A stretch of 64,000 bases of DNA from Streptomyces sp. SID9727 (GTDB taxonomy: Bacteria; Actinomycetota; Actinomycetes; Streptomycetales; Streptomycetaceae), in the NCBI RefSeq assembly GCF_010550605.1, contig NZ_JAAGNI010000435.1, forward strand, positions 62,001 to 126,000, given 5' to 3'. Below, piece after piece: positions 16,404 through 24,925 of this stretch (positions are counted from its first letter, which is position 1; each line of letters opens with the position of its first letter). The translations under genes and the position numbers were made by a program. A model generated the notes under the pieces. That model searched no databases and had not been told where the DNA came from. It worked only from the letters and a program-made list of their open reading frames with translations.

Positions 16404-17223
16404 CGACGCGAACTTCGGCCGTCGACGGTGATCTCGATGGCCGCTCGGTGCGGGACGGCGTACCTGAACCGCCGGCCCGCGGATCGTCGGTTCAGCGACC
16501 ACAGGGCCGACGGTTGCGCGGCGGATTCATGTACCGGCATGGTGCGTGCGCGGGTGCGGCGACCTGGCTACTTCGTGGTGCCCCTTGGAGTTGCCCTGCC
16601 GTAGGCGGGGATGTTCGCGAGCGCCCCAGGCGCCGGGACTCGTCTCCGTAGCTCTTGCGCTCGGAGGGCTGCCCGAACCGCTTGACGGGTCAGAAGGAGC
16701 GGTTCGCCCCCTCGAACAGCTCCTTCTCCCACCCCTCGTGGTGCTCCCGTGCCGCCCGTCTCGCCGAGGCCGCCCTGCGCGTCGCCCACAGCGGTCTGCC
16801 GTTGTGTGCAGCCACAGGTGATGGCAGAGATACCGGCCGAGGGGCCTGATGCCGAGTGTGCTGATGGTGCGTCAAGGCTTCCCGCAGTCATTCCCATAGA
16901 TCTATTGCAGACAACTATGGATGTTCTGTGGCATTCCTGGTGGAGGATCGCGATGATTCTGGTGACTTCGGGGGAGCGGCCTGGCCGCTGTCCGGTCGGA
17001 CGAAGCTGTCGTGGTTCCGGTTCACGCCACGGTGGTGAATGTGAGGTGTGCGCCGTTGTCCGCAGGTGTCGGTGGCGGCGGTGCGCGATGCACGCAGTAC
17101 GGCCAGAGCTCCGCCGCCAGCGGCCGACCGGCCCTCGGTGGTGGAGTCGCGCGACCGCGTGGCCGCCGGTTCCCGGGTCCTCAGGGCCCGCCGTCGGCGC
17201 GCGGACCGATGAGGGGAAGTCCC
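16404..17223. other. Long gap with decayed coding sequence
   Basis: No intact gene. On the minus strand 16690-16800 reads RRAASARRAAREHHEGWEKE then LFEGANRSF and stop, which looks like a real helical C-terminus but has no identifiable family. The final part before 17224 is expected to hold the promoter of the propeller gene. Confidence 0.4.
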
Positions 17224-18633
17224 TTGCCTTCTGCACCTGCCCGCATGCGCCGGTTCTCTTCCGCCTGGTGCCGCCGCCTGGTCTCGTTGGCCGCCGGTGG
17301 CGCTCTGGCGCTCACGGGGGTGGCGGCGCTGAGCGCCCCCGCGCAGGCCGCGACCGGCCCGCTCGCCTATGTAGCCAATATCGGTGGCAACACCGTTTCG
17401 GTGATCGACACGAGTACCAACGTCGTCGCCGCCAGTGTCACGGTCGGCAGCAGCCCCGCCAACGTAGCGGTGTCTCCCGCCGGCACTCAGGCGTACGTCA
17501 CGAACTTCGGAAGCGACACCGTCTCGGTATTCGACACGGCGACCAACGCGGTGACCGCGACCGTTCCCGTCGGCCGCAGCCCGCTCTCCGTGGCGTTGAC
17601 TCCGTCTGGCGCGTCCGCTTACGTCACCAACAACGGCACGAGCACGGTTTCGGTCATCGACACCGCGACCACGTCGGTCAGCGCCACCGTCTCGGTCGGA
17701 AGCGGCCCGAACGGGGTGGCGGTCGCCCCCTCGGGAAGCACCGTCTATGTCACGAACAACTACGAGGACACCGTTTCGGCCATCGACACCGCGACCAACA
17801 CGGTCACCGCGACCATCCCGGTCGGCAGTGCCCCCTCAGGTGTGGCCGTCAGCCCCGCCGGAACCGTCGCGTACGTCACGAACAACGGCGGGTCCACGGT
17901 CTCCGTCATCGACACGGCCACCAACACGGTCATCGCCGGCGTCCCGGTCGGGACCGCTCCCAACGGAGTGTCGTTCAACGCGGCCGGTACACGGGCTTAC
18001 GTCGCCGACTACGGCAGCTCGACGGTCTCCGTCATCGACACCGCGGCCCTCACCGTCACCGCGACCGTGCCGGTGGGCAGCAACCCGGCTCAGGCCAGGA
18101 TCAATCCGTCCGGCACGGCCGTCTACGCCACCAGCCAGTCCGGCAACCAGGTTTCGGTGATCAATACCGCCTCCCATACGGTCACCGCGACGATCACCGG
18201 GTTCACCGGCCCTTACGGCATGGCCTTCAGGCCCGCGCCGCAGGCCTCGGACATCGAGGTCGGCCTCACTGCCAAGCCGCGCCTGGGCATTCTGGTGCCC
18301 TACCTCGGCTACACCCTCACGGCCCGCAACGACGGCCCGGACGCTCTCACCTCGGCGACGCTGACCGCCACACTCCCGGCCGGCGCCGCGGCCACCGACC
18401 TTGCCGCCGGATGCACTTCCGCGAACGCCTCGGTGACCTGTACCTACGGCCCAATCGCCGTCGGTGCGAGCGTGAGCAAGACCTTCCGCGTGCCCCTGAA
18501 CCTCCTCACGCTCGGCCCCGTCACCGTCACCGGCGAGCGGACCGCCTCCGCACCCGCCGATCCCAACACGGCCAACGACAGCGCGGCCCTCACCTGCACA
18601 GCCCTGTCCATCGTGCTCGTCAGCTGCCCCTGA
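17224..18633 (+). CDS. Exported seven-bladed YVTN beta-propeller protein with DUF11 domain
   Basis: About 469 residues. The signal peptide (MRRFSSAWCRRL, then core, then SAPAQAA) is followed by exactly seven ~42-residue repeats of the YVTNNGxSTVSVIDTATNTVxATVPVG type. These close a seven-bladed YVTN/NHL propeller. A C-terminal DUF11 domain follows (GYTLTARNDGPDALTSATLTAT..ANDSAAL). No LPxTG or membrane anchor is seen, so it is probably secreted. TTG 17224 is six bases after GAGGGGA; ATG 17209 and ATG 17245 are alternatives. YVTN propellers occur in surface proteins and bind partners or ligands; no enzymatic role is implied. Confidence 0.88.
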   Translation: MPSAPARMRRFSSAWCRRLVSLAAGGALALTGVAALSAPAQAATGPLAYVANIGGNTVSVIDTSTNVVAASVTVGSSPANVAVSPAGTQAYVTNFGSDTVSVFDTATNAVTATVPVGRSPLSVALTPSGASAYVTNNGTSTVSVIDTATTSVSATVSVGSGPNGVAVAPSGSTVYVTNNYEDTVSAIDTATNTVTATIPVGSAPSGVAVSPAGTVAYVTNNGGSTVSVIDTATNTVIAGVPVGTAPNGVSFNAAGTRAYVADYGSSTVSVIDTAALTVTATVPVGSNPAQARINPSGTAVYATSQSGNQVSVINTASHTVTATITGFTGPYGMAFRPAPQASDIEVGLTAKPRLGILVPYLGYTLTARNDGPDALTSATLTATLPAGAAATDLAAGCTSANASVTCTYGPIAVGASVSKTFRVPLNLLTLGPVTVTGERTASAPADPNTANDSAALTCTALSIVLVSCP

Positions 18634-19588: not shown

Positions 19589-19948
19589 TCACGGCGTGCC
19601 GTGGCCGGCCTCGGGGCTTCCCTGAGCGTCACTGGCGGGCTGGAGACGGAAGACTTGGTCGAGGCCGACGACCCGCAGGACGCGCAGGGTGTGCTGGGGT
19701 ACGGCGGCGAGGGCGATCTCGGCACCGGCGGCGTGGGCGTGGGTCCGGGCGGCGATGAGGGCGGCGAGGCCGCTGGAATCGCAGAACGTCATGCCGCCCA
19801 GGTCGACGACCAGGAGCTGGCCCGGTCGCAGGGCGATGGTCGTGAGAATGTCGCGCAATTGGCCGACGGTTTCGTAGTCGAGGTCGCCCGTGATTGCCAG
19901 AAGGGGGCCGGCGGTAGCGCTTCGAGTGGTGGTTGTGAGCGGGGTCAT
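19589..19948 (-). CDS. rsbV-like: STAS-domain anti-sigma-factor antagonist (RsbV-like)
   Basis: A 119-residue single STAS domain. LLVVDLGGMTFCDSSGLAAL carries the conserved DSSG with the serine (58 or 59) that is phosphorylated by RsbW-type kinases and dephosphorylated by PP2C phosphatases. The ATG overlaps the stop of the phosphatase gene by four bases (ATGA), so the two are translationally coupled. In the Bacillus scheme the unphosphorylated form binds the anti-sigma kinase and frees the sigma factor. No RsbW or sigma gene lies in this window, so its partners are elsewhere. About 40 C-terminal residues beyond the core are Ala/Gln-rich. Confidence 0.9.
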   Translation of the reverse strand: MTPLTTTTRSATAGPLLAITGDLDYETVGQLRDILTTIALRPGQLLVVDLGGMTFCDSSGLAALIAARTHAHAAGAEIALAAVPQHTLRVLRVVGLDQVFRLQPASDAQGSPEAGHGTP

Positions 19949-21231
19949 GCGGTGCTCTTCGTCTCCGATCTGGTAGCCGGCACGCCAAGGGCGAGGAGGG
20001 CTGTGTCATCGTCGAGTCCGTCGCCGAAGTCGTCCAACAGCCCGCTCAGGGCCTCGATGACGGCGTGCGGCGGCTTCCCGGCAAAGCCTGCGGCGTGGGT
20101 GCGGAGGGCTTCGTCTCCGAACAACGCGGTCCGGTCGGCTCCCGTGCGGGCTTCGGTGAGGCCGTCGGTGTACAGCAACAGGGTGTCGCCGGGGGCGAGC
20201 GTAGTAGCGGCGGAGGAGAAGGGCGCGTCAGGAAGGATCCCGACGAGGAGTCCGCCAGGGGTGGGCAGGAAGTCGGCCGTGCCGTCGGCCCGCAGGACGA
20301 GGGCAGGGGGGTGACCACCGGAGGCCAGGCGCACAGAGGTGTGTCCGGCGGAGAGGTCGGGTTCGAGGATGCCGAACACTGCTGTGCAGTAGCGGGGATC
20401 GCCGCCGGTGTAGCGCTCGTGAAGCACCGTGTTCAGGGTGGACAGGGCGGAAACCGGGTCCGGGTGGTGGAGGGCCGCTGCCCGCAGGGTGTAACGGGTG
20501 AGAGAGGTGACGGCGGCCGCTTGGGGCCCCTTTCCGCACACGTCGCCGAGGAAGAAGCCGAAACGTTTGCCGTCGATGGGGAAGAGGTCGTAGAAGTCTC
20601 CGCCGAGGCGGTCGGGAGATGCGGTGCGGTAGTGGGCGCTCGCCTCCACTCCGGGCACGGCGGGCAGCGTGGTGGGCAGCAGCGACTGCTGGAGCACGGC
20701 CAGGGCGTCCTGCAGCCGACGGCGGTCGGCCTCCGCCTCCTTGCGGGCCTCCTCGGCCGCCTTGCGGGCGCGCAGGAGCTCGTCCTCGTAGGCACGGCGC
20801 TCACGTGCGTCGAAGACGGTCGTGCGGATGAGCAGAGGCTCTCCGTTGGCGCCGTGCTTGACCACGGAGGAGGCCAGAACCGGCGCCCGTCCGCCGTCGG
20901 CCCGCTTGAGATCGAGGGCGATGCCGCTGACCTTGCCCTGCATCTGCAGCAGAGGAGCGAAGTGTGTTTCGTGGTACAGCTTGCCGCCGACCGTAAGGAG
21001 GTCGGTGAACCGCATCCGGCCCACCACCGCCGCGCGCTCCAGGCCGAGCCAGTCCAGCAGAGTGGTGTTGATCTTCGCGATGGTGCCATCCATCAGGGTG
21101 GAGAGGTACCCGCACGGAGCGCTCTCGTAGAGTTCGTCGGCGCTGTCCTCCAACAGCGCGGCGAACGCGGCGTCCGTGCTGCTCTCGGGGCCGGTGTTGT
21201 GAGGGTCGGACTGCTGTCCGGAGCGGCACAT
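19945..21231 (-). CDS. rsbP-like: PAS-PP2C (SpoIIE/RsbU-type) serine phosphatase, RsbP-like
   Basis: A 428-residue protein. Residues ~30-145 form a PAS domain (YESAPCGYLSTLMDGTIAKI, then GLERAAVVGRMRFTDLL). Residues ~145-185 are a charged coiled-coil linker ending in LQQSLLPTTLP. Residues ~195-425 form a PPM/SpoIIE phosphatase with the metal-binding GGDFYD (210-215), GDVCGKG (229-235), ASGGHPPA and DGLTEA. The order PAS, coiled coil, PP2C is that of Bacillus RsbP, the energy-stress phosphatase. The start overlaps the RsbQ-like stop as TGATG. The frame is open well upstream into the hydrolase gene, but that extension is not protein-like. Confidence 0.92.
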   Translation of the reverse strand: MCRSGQQSDPHNTGPESSTDAAFAALLEDSADELYESAPCGYLSTLMDGTIAKINTTLLDWLGLERAAVVGRMRFTDLLTVGGKLYHETHFAPLLQMQGKVSGIALDLKRADGGRAPVLASSVVKHGANGEPLLIRTTVFDARERRAYEDELLRARKAAEEARKEAEADRRRLQDALAVLQQSLLPTTLPAVPGVEASAHYRTASPDRLGGDFYDLFPIDGKRFGFFLGDVCGKGPQAAAVTSLTRYTLRAAALHHPDPVSALSTLNTVLHERYTGGDPRYCTAVFGILEPDLSAGHTSVRLASGGHPPALVLRADGTADFLPTPGGLLVGILPDAPFSSAATTLAPGDTLLLYTDGLTEARTGADRTALFGDEALRTHAAGFAGKPPHAVIEALSGLLDDFGDGLDDDTALLALGVPATRSETKSTA

Positions 21232-22034
21232 CACCGCAGACTCCTCAGGAACGCGGCAATGGCTTCGTTGGTGGCCTCCGGCGCCGACAGATGCGGGCAG
21301 TGCCCCGTGGCATCGAGAGTCACCAGCGATGATCCGGGGATCGCCTGGTGAACGTAGGCGCCGACTTCCCGCGGGGCGATGACGTCGTGGGTGCACTCCA
21401 GGACAAGCGTCGGCACTTTCACACCCTGGAGAGCGGTCCGTGAGTCGGACAGGAACGTGGTCCGGGCAAAAACTTGTGCCATCTCCGGGTCGGTGGCGCA
21501 GAAGCTGTGCGTCAGTTCTTCTCCGAGCTCGGGCCTGTCGGCGTTTCCCATGATCACCGGTGCCATCGCCGCGGACCACCCCAGGTAGTTGGACTCCAGC
21601 GATGCCAACAGTTCGTCGATGTCCTCGGCGCTGAAACCGCCCCGGTAATTCTCGTCGTCGATGTAGCACGGAGAAGGCGCCACCATGATCAGCGCACCGA
21701 TTCTCTCCGGGATCATCGCCGCAGCCAGGACCCCGATCATGGCACTGACGGAATGGCCTACGAACGTGGCGTCGCGCAGGTCGAGCGTCTCGCACACATC
21801 CACCACATCCTGGGCATAACCCTCCAAAGCGCTATAGCGCTCCACCGAGAAAGCCGACAGATCCGAGGAACCGGACCCCACGTAGTCAAATGCGACCACA
21901 CGGTAATCGTTCATGAGGGCGGGCGTCGTGAGCCGCCACATGTTCTGGTCGCAACCGAATCCATGAGCCAGTACCACCGTCGGCCCCTGCGGGTTTCCGG
22001 TCACAGTGACGTTGTTTCTCCTTCGGATATCCAT
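21231..22034 (-). CDS. rsbQ: Alpha/beta-hydrolase RsbQ (energy-stress co-activator; KAI2/D14 relative)
   Basis: A 267-residue protein closely matching Bacillus RsbQ along its length: HGFGCDQNMW, VAFDYVGSGSSDLSAFSVER, LEGYAQDVVDVCETLDL, FVGHSVSAMIG, PSPCYIDDENYRGGF, GHCPHLS. The triad is Ser95 (GHSVS), Asp217 and His245, each within two positions of B. subtilis S96/D219/H247. RsbQ hydrolyses or senses an unknown small hydrophobic molecule and is needed for RsbP phosphatase activity. Here it heads the operon and overlaps the RsbP-like gene by one base, as in Bacillus where the two are also adjacent. The start is ATG with a weak GGTGG site. Confidence 0.94.
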   Translation of the reverse strand: MDIRRRNNVTVTGNPQGPTVVLAHGFGCDQNMWRLTTPALMNDYRVVAFDYVGSGSSDLSAFSVERYSALEGYAQDVVDVCETLDLRDATFVGHSVSAMIGVLAAAMIPERIGALIMVAPSPCYIDDENYRGGFSAEDIDELLASLESNYLGWSAAMAPVIMGNADRPELGEELTHSFCATDPEMAQVFARTTFLSDSRTALQGVKVPTLVLECTHDVIAPREVGAYVHQAIPGSSLVTLDATGHCPHLSAPEATNEAIAAFLRSLR

Positions 22035-22552
22035 GCCACCACTCTCGCAGCCCTTGACCCCGGTTCGACTCCTGACCCCGGCTGCCGCAGTCCTTACGCA
22101 GGGTCCTCACGCGATGCGCATACTCTGGTGGCAGGCGAGGGTGGCAGGCGAGCTCATTCTCGGGCGTGCCCACGGGCCCTTCGTCAGGGGTCGGCAATTA
22201 CCCCCGGTACGACCGGCCCGCAGCGGTGTCCTGGCGCATGCGTGCTTGCTGGCCGGCGTGGCTGTGTACGCCTCGTTCGGCGGCGCGCATCGAGACGAAC
22301 GAGGTATTCCCGCTCTGCCTCACCTGGACCGCGCGCCTCCGTATCGGCACCGGCTCTGCCGTGTGGACAGTCTGGGAGCACGAGTGGTGTGTGGTGTTCC
22401 TGGGGTCTTGTGCGCGGACAGAAGCGATCAGGAGTTATTAGTTTCTTCCTATGCCGGAAATTTTCGGACGGATGTGCCGACTTCGCGTGAGCGCTGGGTA
22501 GATTCTCGATCAGTTCGCGTGGCCAAGTGCCTTACCTGGCAACGAAGTTGTT
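22035..22552. other. Divergent intergenic region, no gene recognised
   Basis: This should hold the promoters of the minus-strand rsbQ operon and of the first small paralogue. Short frames here (for example 22166-22441 on the plus strand) show no family likeness. The 3' end is comparatively AT-rich (TTAGTTTCTTCC near 22440), consistent with promoter sequence. Confidence 0.4.
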
Positions 22553-22568
22553 TTTCACCGGAGCGCGG
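22553..22568 (+). promoter_or_regulatory. Shared upstream element, copy 1 (TTTCACCGGAGCGCGG)
   Basis: Sixteen bases located 43 nt before the start codon of the first small paralogue. They are repeated exactly before the third paralogue and in degenerate form before the second, at nearly the same distance. It could be a promoter or operator element, or a remnant of the duplication. Confidence 0.5.
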
Positions 22569-22611
22569 ACGTGTCTCATGGGCGCCCGCGGGACCGAAGA
22601 GGAGGGTCTCC

Positions 22612-22908
22612 ATGCCTGACATCGACCTCGGCGCGGCGGATGACTGGGAAGTCGGCGAGTTCCACGGCGTCGTGAAGCTGACGGGGAGCCGGGGCCAATC
22701 GAGCCCGGCGAAAAAGGATGTGCTCGTCGGGTCGCCGGTGAGCATCGAGTTGCTGGTGAACACCAACCTGTCGAGCAGCCAGGAAGGCGACAAGATCTAC
22801 TTCACGGCCCACCACGGCAGCACGAAGAAGGTCATCGCCGTCATCGACTCCGACGGCCACATGTCCATCGCCGGCAAGGTCTTCCCCCATCAGGGGTACC
22901 TGGCCTGA
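22612..22908 (+). CDS. Small conserved protein, paralogue 1 of 3
   Basis: A 98-residue protein starting MPDIDLGAADDWEVGEFHG, with VVKLTGSRGQ..KKDVLVGSPVSIELLVNTN and a C-terminal YFTAHHGSTKKVIAVIDSDG then GKVFPHQGYLA. It is rich in predicted beta-strands, has no signal peptide and no membrane segment. The ATG follows GGAGGG. Two further paralogues follow in tandem with 180-bp and 144-bp gaps. I do not recognise a functional family. The shared MPDIDLG start and the charge pattern suggest a compact cytosolic beta fold. Confidence 0.75.
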   Translation: MPDIDLGAADDWEVGEFHGVVKLTGSRGQSSPAKKDVLVGSPVSIELLVNTNLSSSQEGDKIYFTAHHGSTKKVIAVIDSDGHMSIAGKVFPHQGYLA

Positions 22909-23092: not shown

Positions 23093-23392
23093 ATGCCCGA
23101 CATCGACCTCGGTGTGGCATCGGATGTGAAGACCGGTGACTACAACGGTCGCGTCAAGCTGACACAGAACCGGGTCTACTCGGACTCGGAGAAGAAGGAC
23201 GTACTCATCAGCGGCCCGGAGAGCATCGAGTTGTCGGTGAACACGAACCACTCCAGCAGCCAGGAAGCCGACAAGTTCTTCTTCGCCACCCACCACGGAA
23301 GCTTGATGCGCATCCTCGCGGTGCTGGACTCCGAGGGCAACCTGCGCCTCGCCGGCCGGCTGATCACAGAGCAGAAGAACCTGACCTACTAG
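23093..23392 (+). CDS. Small conserved protein, paralogue 2 of 3
   Basis: 99 residues: MPDIDLGVASDVKTGDYNG, VKLTQNRVYSDSEKKDVLIS, SIELSVNTNHSSSQEADKFF, ATHHGSLMRILAVLDSEGN. It aligns end to end with its two neighbours; the invariant parts are MPDIDLG, G.VKL, KKDVL, SIEL..NTN, HG and the A(V/I)(I/L)DS(D/E/Q)G turn. The ATG follows AAAGGGGAA. Its sequence divergence from the neighbours at both protein and upstream level suggests an old duplication maintained by selection. Confidence 0.75.
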   Translation: MPDIDLGVASDVKTGDYNGRVKLTQNRVYSDSEKKDVLISGPESIELSVNTNHSSSQEADKFFFATHHGSLMRILAVLDSEGNLRLAGRLITEQKNLTY

Positions 23393-23476
23393 GGCACGGC
23401 CCCACCGCTCCTGTGCGCGCCCGAAGCGCGTGCGCCTCCACCGGATGAGGAAGCCGTTCATCCGGCCACGACCTTG

Positions 23477-23492
23477 TTTCACCGGAGCGCGG
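23477..23492 (+). promoter_or_regulatory. Shared upstream element, copy 3 (TTTCACCGGAGCGCGG)
   Basis: Identical in all 16 bases to the copy at 22553-22568 and 44 nt before the start codon of the third paralogue. Confidence 0.5.
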
Positions 23493-23536
23493 CGGTTGCC
23501 CATCGGCAACGGCCGTGGATCACAGAGGGGGACTCC

Positions 23537-23839
23537 ATGCCCGACATCGATCTCGGCGTAGCCACGGACGAGAACTGGGAAGGCGACGGCAACGGCCGCG
23601 TCAAGCTGCGGCAGAACCATCTCTACTGGCCGAAGAAGGACGTGCTCATCAGCAGCCCGCAGAGCATCGAGCTGTCGATCAACACCAACCTCGAAGTGGA
23701 CCACGAGAAGAACAAGTTCTACTTCACGACCTACCACGGCACAGACAAGAAGGTGGTCGCGATCCTGGACTCACAGGGGAACCTCTACCTCGCGGGCAGC
23801 CTGTCCCAGGAGAACTGGGGCGACCTGTCCTACGACTGA
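23537..23839 (+). CDS. Small conserved protein, paralogue 3 of 3
   Basis: 100 residues: MPDIDLGVATDENWEGDGNG, VKLRQNHLYWPKKDVLISS, SIELSINTNLEVDHEKNKFY, TYHGTDKKVVAILDSQGN. Same architecture as the two genes upstream. The ATG follows AGAGGGGGA. The invariant residues of the trio are kept, which argues that all three are functional. The gene ends just before transposase debris. Confidence 0.75.
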   Translation: MPDIDLGVATDENWEGDGNGRVKLRQNHLYWPKKDVLISSPQSIELSINTNLEVDHEKNKFYFTTYHGTDKKVVAILDSQGNLYLAGSLSQENWGDLSYD

Positions 23840-23990: not shown

Positions 23991-24430
23991 CGTGGGAGTA
24001 GTCGGCCCGGCCGTCGCCGACCCGGTCGCACCCGGCGAGGGTACAGACGTCAGCCATCTCGATCAGCAGCTCGGGGCCTCCTTCGTTGCGCTTCGCGGCC
24101 CATCACCCGATCGGTCACCAACTCGAAGAGGCTCACTGGGCGAAGCCGCTGGAGCGCATCGACCCCACCGCGTTGGTGGTCAACGAAACGTTGCTCAGCT
24201 TGCTCCGACGGAAAGCCGGAGAGGTCGGGGTCTTCCCTGTTCAAAGTCCGGTCACACGCAGCCGCCCTGTTGTCCAGTTGCTCGGCCAGGCCGGATGTAG
24301 GGCCAAAGCGGGATCATCCGGGGATACATCGTCGGCTTCCTCACCGCCGAGCCAGAGTGGGCGGCACTTGAATGCGTGGCCGGTGAGCAGAGAGGCATCT
24401 CACGGAAGCGCCAGGCTAGGGTCTGCAGTC
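23991..24430. other. Decayed intergenic sequence
   Basis: A plus-strand frame (24100-24240) reads HPIGHQLEEAHWAKPLERID then PTALVVNETLLSLLRRKAGE and may be old coding sequence, but no family is recognised and no start is visible. Confidence 0.35.
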
Positions 24431-24925
24431 ATGGACTTCCGATCGACCACCGACCCCGTTACCTTCCCCGCCCCGCTTCGCGAGCAGTTGGAGACGTTCC
24501 TCGATGAGCACCGGGCCGCCCTCCACGCCAGTCTGGACGGGCTGACCGAGGAGCAGGCTCGGCGGTCGCTGGTGGCATCGAAAACCACGCTGCTGGGGCT
24601 CGTCAAGCACGCCACGTTCGTGGAGAAGGTCTGGTTCGACGAGGCGATCACCTGTCGGTCGCGTGCCGAGATCGGTATTCCGGCCACACCCGACGAGTCC
24701 TTCGACCTGGAATACGGCGATACCGTCGCCTCGGTTCAGCTCGCCTACAGGGAAGCCTGCGAGGCATCGCGGAAGGCCGCCGCGGAGCTGTCGCTGGACG
24801 ATGTCGTACGGGGAAACCGGCGCGGCCCGCTGCCGATGCGCTGGATCTACCTCCACATGCTGCGCGAACTGGCCCAGCACTGCGGCCACGCAGACATCCT
24901 TCGGGAGCAGATGCAAGCCGCCTGA
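24431..24925 (+). CDS. DinB-family (DUF664) protein
   Basis: A 164-residue four-helix protein. It has the DinB/DUF664 pattern: EQLETFLDEHRAALHASLDG, LGLVKHATFVEKVWFDEA with the first metal-binding His, and LPMRWIYLHMLRELAQHCGH with the later His pair, ending in ADILREQM. DinB-like proteins bind a divalent metal through three His; many in actinomycetes act as thiol-dependent S-transferases (mycothiol-linked detoxification). The ATG at 24431 is chosen by family length; the upstream frame is open but not protein-like. Confidence 0.88.
   Translation: MDFRSTTDPVTFPAPLREQLETFLDEHRAALHASLDGLTEEQARRSLVASKTTLLGLVKHATFVEKVWFDEAITCRSRAEIGIPATPDESFDLEYGDTVASVQLAYREACEASRKAAAELSLDDVVRGNRRGPLPMRWIYLHMLRELAQHCGHADILREQMQAA

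Follow-up and report, generated by a model that had tools for sequence, protein, structure and literature searches.

An RsbQ–RsbP–RsbV operon of Streptomyces as the probable input arm of a SigB-type partner switch

Partner-switch phosphatases and kinases number in the dozens in streptomycetes, and few of the pairings between the two are established. For S. coelicolor, 44 and 45 homologues have been cited, and the species has nine SigB homologues and many RsbW and PP2C paralogs (PMC8346170; here and below, this paper, PMC3183031, PMC6295645 and PMC7522486 are cited for the accessible parts of their text). The genome of Streptomyces sp. SID9727 has 37 SpoIIE matches of its own, and a 64,000-nucleotide stretch of it (C308:62001-126000, hereafter the window) holds, side by side, genes for an RsbQ-family hydrolase, an RsbP-type phosphatase and an RsbV-type STAS protein. 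Which kinase and which sigma factor would such a module serve? Gene linkage in relatives ties it to a kinase clade and a sigma orthogroup, reducing the wiring question to a few binding tests. We read the three genes as the input arm of a SigB-type partner switch, with a probability of about 0.7.

Three overlapping genes of the RsbQ, RsbP and RsbV types

Window positions 19589-22034 form a single overlapping operon on the reverse strand. The first gene (21231..22034 (-)) encodes the RsbQ-family alpha/beta hydrolase of 267 residues with the triad S95-D217-H245. The second (19945..21231 (-)) encodes the RsbP-type phosphatase of 428 residues, with a PAS domain, a single long helix and a PP2C/SpoIIE domain, and the third (19589..19948 (-)) the RsbV-type STAS anti-anti-sigma protein of 119 residues, with a DSSG motif at residues 57–60. 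The phosphatase starts within the hydrolase stop codon (overlap TGATG); an alternative GTG start one codon earlier would give the overlap GTGA. The phosphatase stop and the STAS gene overlap by ATGA, the coupling given in the initial annotation. Because the same gene order recurs in relatives, the operon is not a chance arrangement. Genome-wide profile matches (E ≤ 0.001) placed no HATPase_c_2 and no SigBFG domain in the window, in line with the earlier statement that it holds neither an RsbW kinase nor a sigma gene.

By sequence and predicted fold, the hydrolase is of RsbQ type. Its top match in the Protein Data Bank (PDB) is B. subtilis RsbQ (1wom; 296.7 bits, query residues 3–264), followed by an Oleispira hydrolase (259.8 bits), plant KAI2-type receptors (≤206 bits) and D14 (~180 bits), while the best match outside the RsbQ/KAI2/D14 group reaches only 67 bits. 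S95, D217 and H245 align with the S, D and H of B. subtilis RsbQ that we take to be its catalytic triad, and are invariant across 35 aligned proteins with identities down to 37%. In a Foldseek comparison of the AlphaFold model (pLDDT 95.9), RsbQ ranked first (TM 0.96, rmsd 1.2 Å, 49% identity), with KAI2 and D14 lower (TM ~0.9 and 32–39% identity among the matches listed). The match to RsbQ along its length and the kinship with KAI2 and D14, both claimed beforehand, were thereby borne out; in the structural comparison proposed as a check, the protein did not cluster with generic esterases, and a generic esterase identity is rejected on the bit scores and this ranking. SCO3690 has been described as similar to RsbQ, and its S. 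lividans ortholog has been deleted (PMC6295645).

The phosphatase matches PAS_9 at 27.2 bits, barely above the cut-off of 27, and SpoIIE/PP2C at 159 bits. Its model (pLDDT 84.4) has a PAS domain at ~40–141, a single helix at 142–184 and a PP2C domain at ~195–416. As judged from these matches and the model, it has the RsbP layout of N-terminal PAS domain, long helix (a predicted coiled coil) and C-terminal PP2C domain that the initial annotation had proposed. For a finer comparison of the PAS domain we used the residue letters of B. subtilis RsbP, which fit all nine numbered residues of the comparison. These nine residues mark RsbP-PAS domains (PMC3183031); we compared them through the figure legend and text of that paper. 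C40, L43, L79 and P117 of the window phosphatase are identical to RsbP C10, L13, L48 and P86. K84, Y86, H87 and H90 stand at RsbP Q53, F55, C56 and Y59 and are of the kinds allowed by the legend and text of PMC3183031. The ninth position, RsbP E72, departs from the set, with G in the window phosphatase. No DIT motif was seen on reading the phosphatase sequence.

Two of these positions bear directly on RsbQ. In B. subtilis, alanine forms of RsbP F55 and Y59 lose contact with RsbQ (PMC3183031), and the corresponding Y86 and H90 are Y and H in all 185 actinomycete sequences. A further position, H87 (window 20971-20973, (-)), admits another reading, in which the PAS domain is itself a haem-type sensor of oxygen or redox state and RsbQ merely licenses it. 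The RsbP C56 position has been equated with the histidine that binds haem in E. coli Dos and FixL, with H at this position in 2 of 24 sequences (PMC3183031); among the actinomycete sequences, H occupies it in 180 of 185. Set against this, the neighbouring residues of the Fα helix are those required for RsbQ contact, so H87 may serve that contact, and we consider a haem sensor improbable.

The STAS protein matches ant_ant_sig at 57.7 bits (cut-off 53.45), and S58 of its DSSG motif is S in 147 of the 150 aligned rows, with a gap in the remaining 3; its description as RsbV-like with a phospho-serine motif thus held. No clear close paralog was found in the SID9727 genome, where the best match scores 52 bits.

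Spread of the operon and its three-gene form

At E ≤ 1e-40, RsbQ occurs in 118 of 297 genomes of the family, and a stricter cut of E ≤ 1e-50 finds it in 24 of 396 genomes sampled from the phylum; both counts include the SID9727 genome. Two RsbQ–RsbP copies each were already listed in 2011 for S. ambofaciens and S. pristinaespiralis (PMC3183031). The family count and these pairs rule out rarity in actinomycetes, and the earlier view that the system is unusual for such an organism has to be given up.

We compared 187 loci: 120 fetched with flanks of ≤7 kb, the window, and 66 further ones. The first set lacks the 11 lowest rows of the family listing of 118 RsbQ genomes; the further set consists of 80 named loci from one scan minus 14 exact duplicates. 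Only exact duplicates were dropped, so the 66 are new, yet no fully independent sample. A PP2C gene comes next after RsbQ in 184 of the 187 loci, with one of the three exceptions interrupted by a contig end, and in 119 of the first 121 loci the following gene also has a PAS domain. Some loci (L115, L123, L161, L323 and L324) have PAS and PP2C split over two open reading frames (ORFs). That the hydrolase is an ordinary catabolic esterase, adjoining a partner-switch phosphatase by accident, might be suggested by the plain alpha/beta hydrolase annotation of the three Streptomyces plasmid relatives that we viewed. This is very improbable, given the near-constant PP2C neighbour, the margin by which RsbQ (296.7 bits) outscores the best hydrolase beyond the RsbQ/KAI2/D14 group (67 bits), and the invariant PAS positions for RsbQ contact.

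The third gene is also widespread. Of the 181 actinomycete loci that could be tested, 149 have a STAS gene no more than 1 kb beyond the phosphatase; this count leaves out L188, L202 and L265 (no full PP2C) and L102, L261 and L279 (downstream stretch too short); L279 nonetheless has a STAS ORF. At L202, which lacks a full phosphatase domain, a single short ORF comes directly after RsbQ; it resembles PAS domains weakly and STAS domains clearly. Tight coupling is common among the first 121 loci: in 95 of 119 the start of the phosphatase gene falls within the stop codon of the hydrolase gene, and 69 of 94 STAS genes begin through an ATGA overlap. The RsbQ tree has weak support at its deepest split; few members of its larger group lack the STAS gene, compared with about half of its smaller group. 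Ten named loci from other actinomycete families divide evenly, with a STAS gene in Nocardia, Saccharothrix, Nonomuraea, Lentzea and one Nocardiopsis, and without one in two Planobispora, Actinomadura, Kribbella and another Nocardiopsis. None of 19 more distant loci had a STAS gene in the fetched stretch. By RefSeq annotation, two Streptomyces plasmids carry the three genes in the same order; on a third, the phosphatase is followed by no annotated STAS gene, and on a Rhizobium plasmid, RsbQ is paired with a PAS histidine kinase.

The B. subtilis RsbQ–RsbP branch shares with the window operon the hydrolase family and aligned triad, the PAS–helix–PP2C layout and the order of RsbQ then RsbP. The window operon differs in having an RsbV-type gene third, whereas B. 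subtilis rsbV is located in the sigB operon; it further differs in G at the E72 position, and neither a kinase gene nor a sigma gene is linked to it within the window. The RsbQ–PAS module of Nadezhdin et al. 2011 (PMC3183031) is alike in its phosphatase output and already lists Streptomyces, and the accessible text mentions no RsbV, kinase or sigma gene beside the actinomycete pairs. In the open-access literature, with most subscription papers outside our scope, we found no paper on an actinomycete RsbQ–RsbP–RsbV operon or its partners. What is added to this known kind of system is the three-gene form, together with its tie to a kinase clade and a sigma orthogroup.

Kinase and sigma genes linked to the operon

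Hidden Markov models (HMMs) built from the kinases and sigma factors of the SID9727 genome were used to scan the flanks, with a SigB-family cut-off of ≥100 bits. Of the first 121 loci, 12 have a SigB-family gene no farther than 7 kb away (~1.8 expected), as do 10 of the 66 further loci (0.95 expected). The latter were fetched after the idea had formed, and some of them are closely related to the first set. The sigma background was 1.05/Mb, from 130 SigB-family genes (counted at E ≤ 1e-60) in 15 genomes totalling ~124 Mb (sizes rounded); these genomes were RsbQ-bearing, came from the high-scoring part of the list and included none of the 12 with a linked sigma gene. The excess is confined to the vicinity of the operon. 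Sigma density is 40/Mb in the 1.75 kb before RsbQ and 9.5/Mb both in the next stretch out (−3.5 to −1.75 kb) and in the 1.75 kb that follow the operon; it is 3–6/Mb beyond, and 0 from −7 to −3.5 kb. RsbW-type HATPases follow the same pattern, with 43/Mb and 32/Mb in the two flanking stretches of 1.75 kb and 7–16/Mb farther out. A linked sigma or a flanking kinase gene occurs at 34 loci, and both at 11. The best examples are L199, with the order sigma–kinase–Q–P–V, all on one strand, and L099, L268 and L277, which share the arrangement sigma–Q–P–V–kinase.

The linked genes often fall into one group each. In a tree of 21 of the 22 linked sigma factors (that of L270 was too short), one orthogroup holds 10 of the 21 (support 100/99), and these ten come from loci with RsbQ of different groups and with differing gene order. 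Likewise, 13 of 24 flank kinases form one clade (support 98/92) in a tree with 29 linked kinases. The pairing of the two families also occurs apart from RsbQ: in two genomes without RsbQ at E ≤ 1e-40, a kinase of the linked family adjoins a sigma of the orthogroup (G249) or lies near a sigma of the wider subfamily (G208).

Across 153 genomes of the window's genus (the total taken from listing order), RsbQ accompanies these families. Where the kinase family (E ≤ 1e-32) is present, 53 of 70 genomes also have RsbQ, vs 25 of 83 where it is absent (p 2e-8); the corresponding figures are 75 of 115 vs 3 of 38 for the sigma subfamily (E ≤ 1e-105; p 2e-10) and 38 of 52 vs 40 of 101 for the sigma orthogroup (E ≤ 2e-135, a cut chosen by hand; p 9e-5). 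For a control kinase, the figures were 71 of 139 and 7 of 14 (p 1).

Two kinases of the SID9727 genome (G000) come forward from this linkage. A second kinase tree kept three own kinases of the first and added the five best own profile matches. Here the kinase at C40:13578-13997 is sister to the linked kinase of L285 (support 100/100, 68% identity), and it is also the best own-genome match to the linked-kinase profile (162 bits, the next reaching 124). We tentatively favour this unlinked ortholog of a linked kinase as the best candidate partner of the STAS protein, at somewhat less than even odds. The HATPase at C341:9492-9896, basal in the L199–L285 group (support 99/96), is a second candidate kinase, at a distance of 3.7 kb from a SigB-family sigma gene. 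C341 carries one of the two own sigma genes closest to the linked ones, along with further PP2C and STAS genes. Around the C40 kinase, no sigma gene was found. The genome search for RsbW-type kinases set out beforehand thus yields two candidates, named from linkage only. Naming a target sigma factor in this genome was not possible, the own sigmas falling outside the linked orthogroup. The initial annotation had placed the target kinase elsewhere in the genome: none is in the window, as it held, and the target is not wholly unknown, the flanking sigmas and kinases of relatives often belonging to one orthogroup and one clade.

A few loci show related features of their own. At L252 (same class, outside Streptomycetaceae), a SigB/SigF-like sigma gene lies at −924, divergent from RsbQ. 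Small ORFs before RsbQ look alike by eye at L212 (−510..−67), L213 (−565..−134) and L163 (−720..−109, all relative to the RsbQ start); a kinase in these ORFs was rejected, those of L212 and L163 having no Pfam match. In G122, a kinase of the linked family (C1:9245607-9246014) lies 0.7 kb from an RsbQ match (9246674-9247477) with an in-frame stop.

Proposed partner switch, its signal and the operon surroundings

From the observed families, operon, conservation, linkage and co-occurrence, we infer the binding and enzymatic steps, the signal and the choice of kinase and sigma factor as follows. RsbQ would bind, and may slowly hydrolyse, a small molecule and contact the Fα helix of the phosphatase PAS domain. 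The change would travel along the long helix and activate the PP2C domain, which would dephosphorylate the STAS protein from the same operon. The unphosphorylated STAS protein would bind an RsbW-type kinase (the anti-sigma factor), which would then release a SigB-family sigma factor. The kinase and sigma genes would be those that adjoin the operon in some relatives and lie elsewhere in the window's genome. The SigB-type partner switches of S. coelicolor are built from kinases, STAS proteins, phosphatases and sigma factors of these same kinds (PMC8346170); RsbQ is named once in the accessible text of that paper, as a B. subtilis component.

Several observations speak against such an input arm. 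In the PAS domain, E72, essential in B. subtilis RsbP, is G103 in the window and G in 179 of 185 sequences; 12 of 16 RsbP-like proteins from other Actinomycetota retain E there. No STAS gene follows the phosphatase in 32 of the 181 testable loci, and the fetched flanks of 165 of 187 loci, the window included, hold no sigma gene. The loci are related, as the shared arrangement of L099, L268 and L277 shows, so the counts are not independent events and Poisson values overstate. The sigmas of L316 and L270 are weak hits (123–124 bits), and that of L316, one of the ten in the orthogroup, has a long branch in the tree. The main orthogroup and clade leave out 11 of the 21 linked sigmas and 11 of the 24 flank kinases. 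In the second kinase tree, the clade of the same 13 kinases with those of C40 and C341 has a support of only 89/90. The co-occurrence p values carry no correction for phylogeny, and the control kinase is a weak control because it is near-universal in the genus. From the sigma comparison, the SID9727 genome seems to lack the linked orthogroup, and its two nearest sigma genes adjoin other PP2C genes. Finally, a strict SigB-type promoter pattern was found upstream of RsbQ in 0 of 187 loci; looser patterns gave 2 of 187 (2.6 in shuffles), and 6 and 3 of 187 (no shuffles made). Because no such promoters were found, self-activation by the target sigma factor is unsupported.

The same input arm might instead feed a branched network, its STAS protein binding several RsbW-type kinases, or kinases that hold no sigma factor, so that there would be no single sigma target. 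The SID9727 genome has room for this, with 74 HATPase_c_2 (not all of them RsbW-type), 14 ant_ant_sig and 37 SpoIIE matches (E ≤ 0.001), and most operons have no sigma gene nearby. Against such branching, 13 of 24 flank kinases fall in one clade and 10 of 21 linked sigmas in one orthogroup, in different gene arrangements. We regard a branched network as unlikely and retain the switch proposed above.

A putative extended −10 element, TGC-GAGAGT, lies at 22041..22049 (-), and because its hexamer begins 12 nt before the hydrolase ATG, a leaderless transcript is probable. The TG-N-RAGNNT hexamer stands 12–13 nt before the RsbQ start codon in at most 108 of 187 loci (37 at 12 and 71 at 13), with a RAGNNT background of ~0.5 per position elsewhere. 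This motif is consistent with the extended −10 of a leaderless transcript.

Confidence in any stated input signal is low, and "energy stress" is a label borrowed from B. subtilis. Energy depletion, with a metabolic ligand or none, is the input usually given for B. subtilis RsbQ–RsbP, and both the homology to these proteins and the conventional reading of the Bacillus pathway (PMC7522486) speak for it. An energy-depletion response has been doubted even for B. subtilis (PMC3183031), and we think this input unlikely here.

A different signal is suggested by the plant relatives. KAI2 and D14 have the same hydrolase fold, which makes a small-molecule pocket in the hydrolase plausible; they are more distant from it than RsbQ (≤206 vs 296.7 bits), and their partner is an F-box protein, unlike the PAS phosphatase here. 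Streptomyces RsbQ could conceivably be a KAI2-like receptor for a butenolide-type signal, either an own butenolide hormone or a plant compound in soil, acting via RsbP and RsbV on a dedicated SigB-family sigma factor, a reading that we hold to be rather less likely still than energy depletion. TetR-type butenolide receptors are already known, and a butenolide ligand would mean a hormone-to-sigma-factor switch separate from them. Such a switch would connect hormone signalling in bacteria with a stress sigma factor, and would be a bacterial use of the fold that serves strigolactone and karrikin perception in plants.

The window also holds several genes on the opposite strand. A beta-propeller (YNCE/lactonase-like) protein is encoded at 17011-18633 (+). 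Three neighbouring ORFs (22006-22908, 23093-23392 and 23474-23839, (+)) have a DUF6342 domain of ~99 residues, and a mycothiol S-transferase (MST/DinB) ORF lies at 24086-24925 (+).

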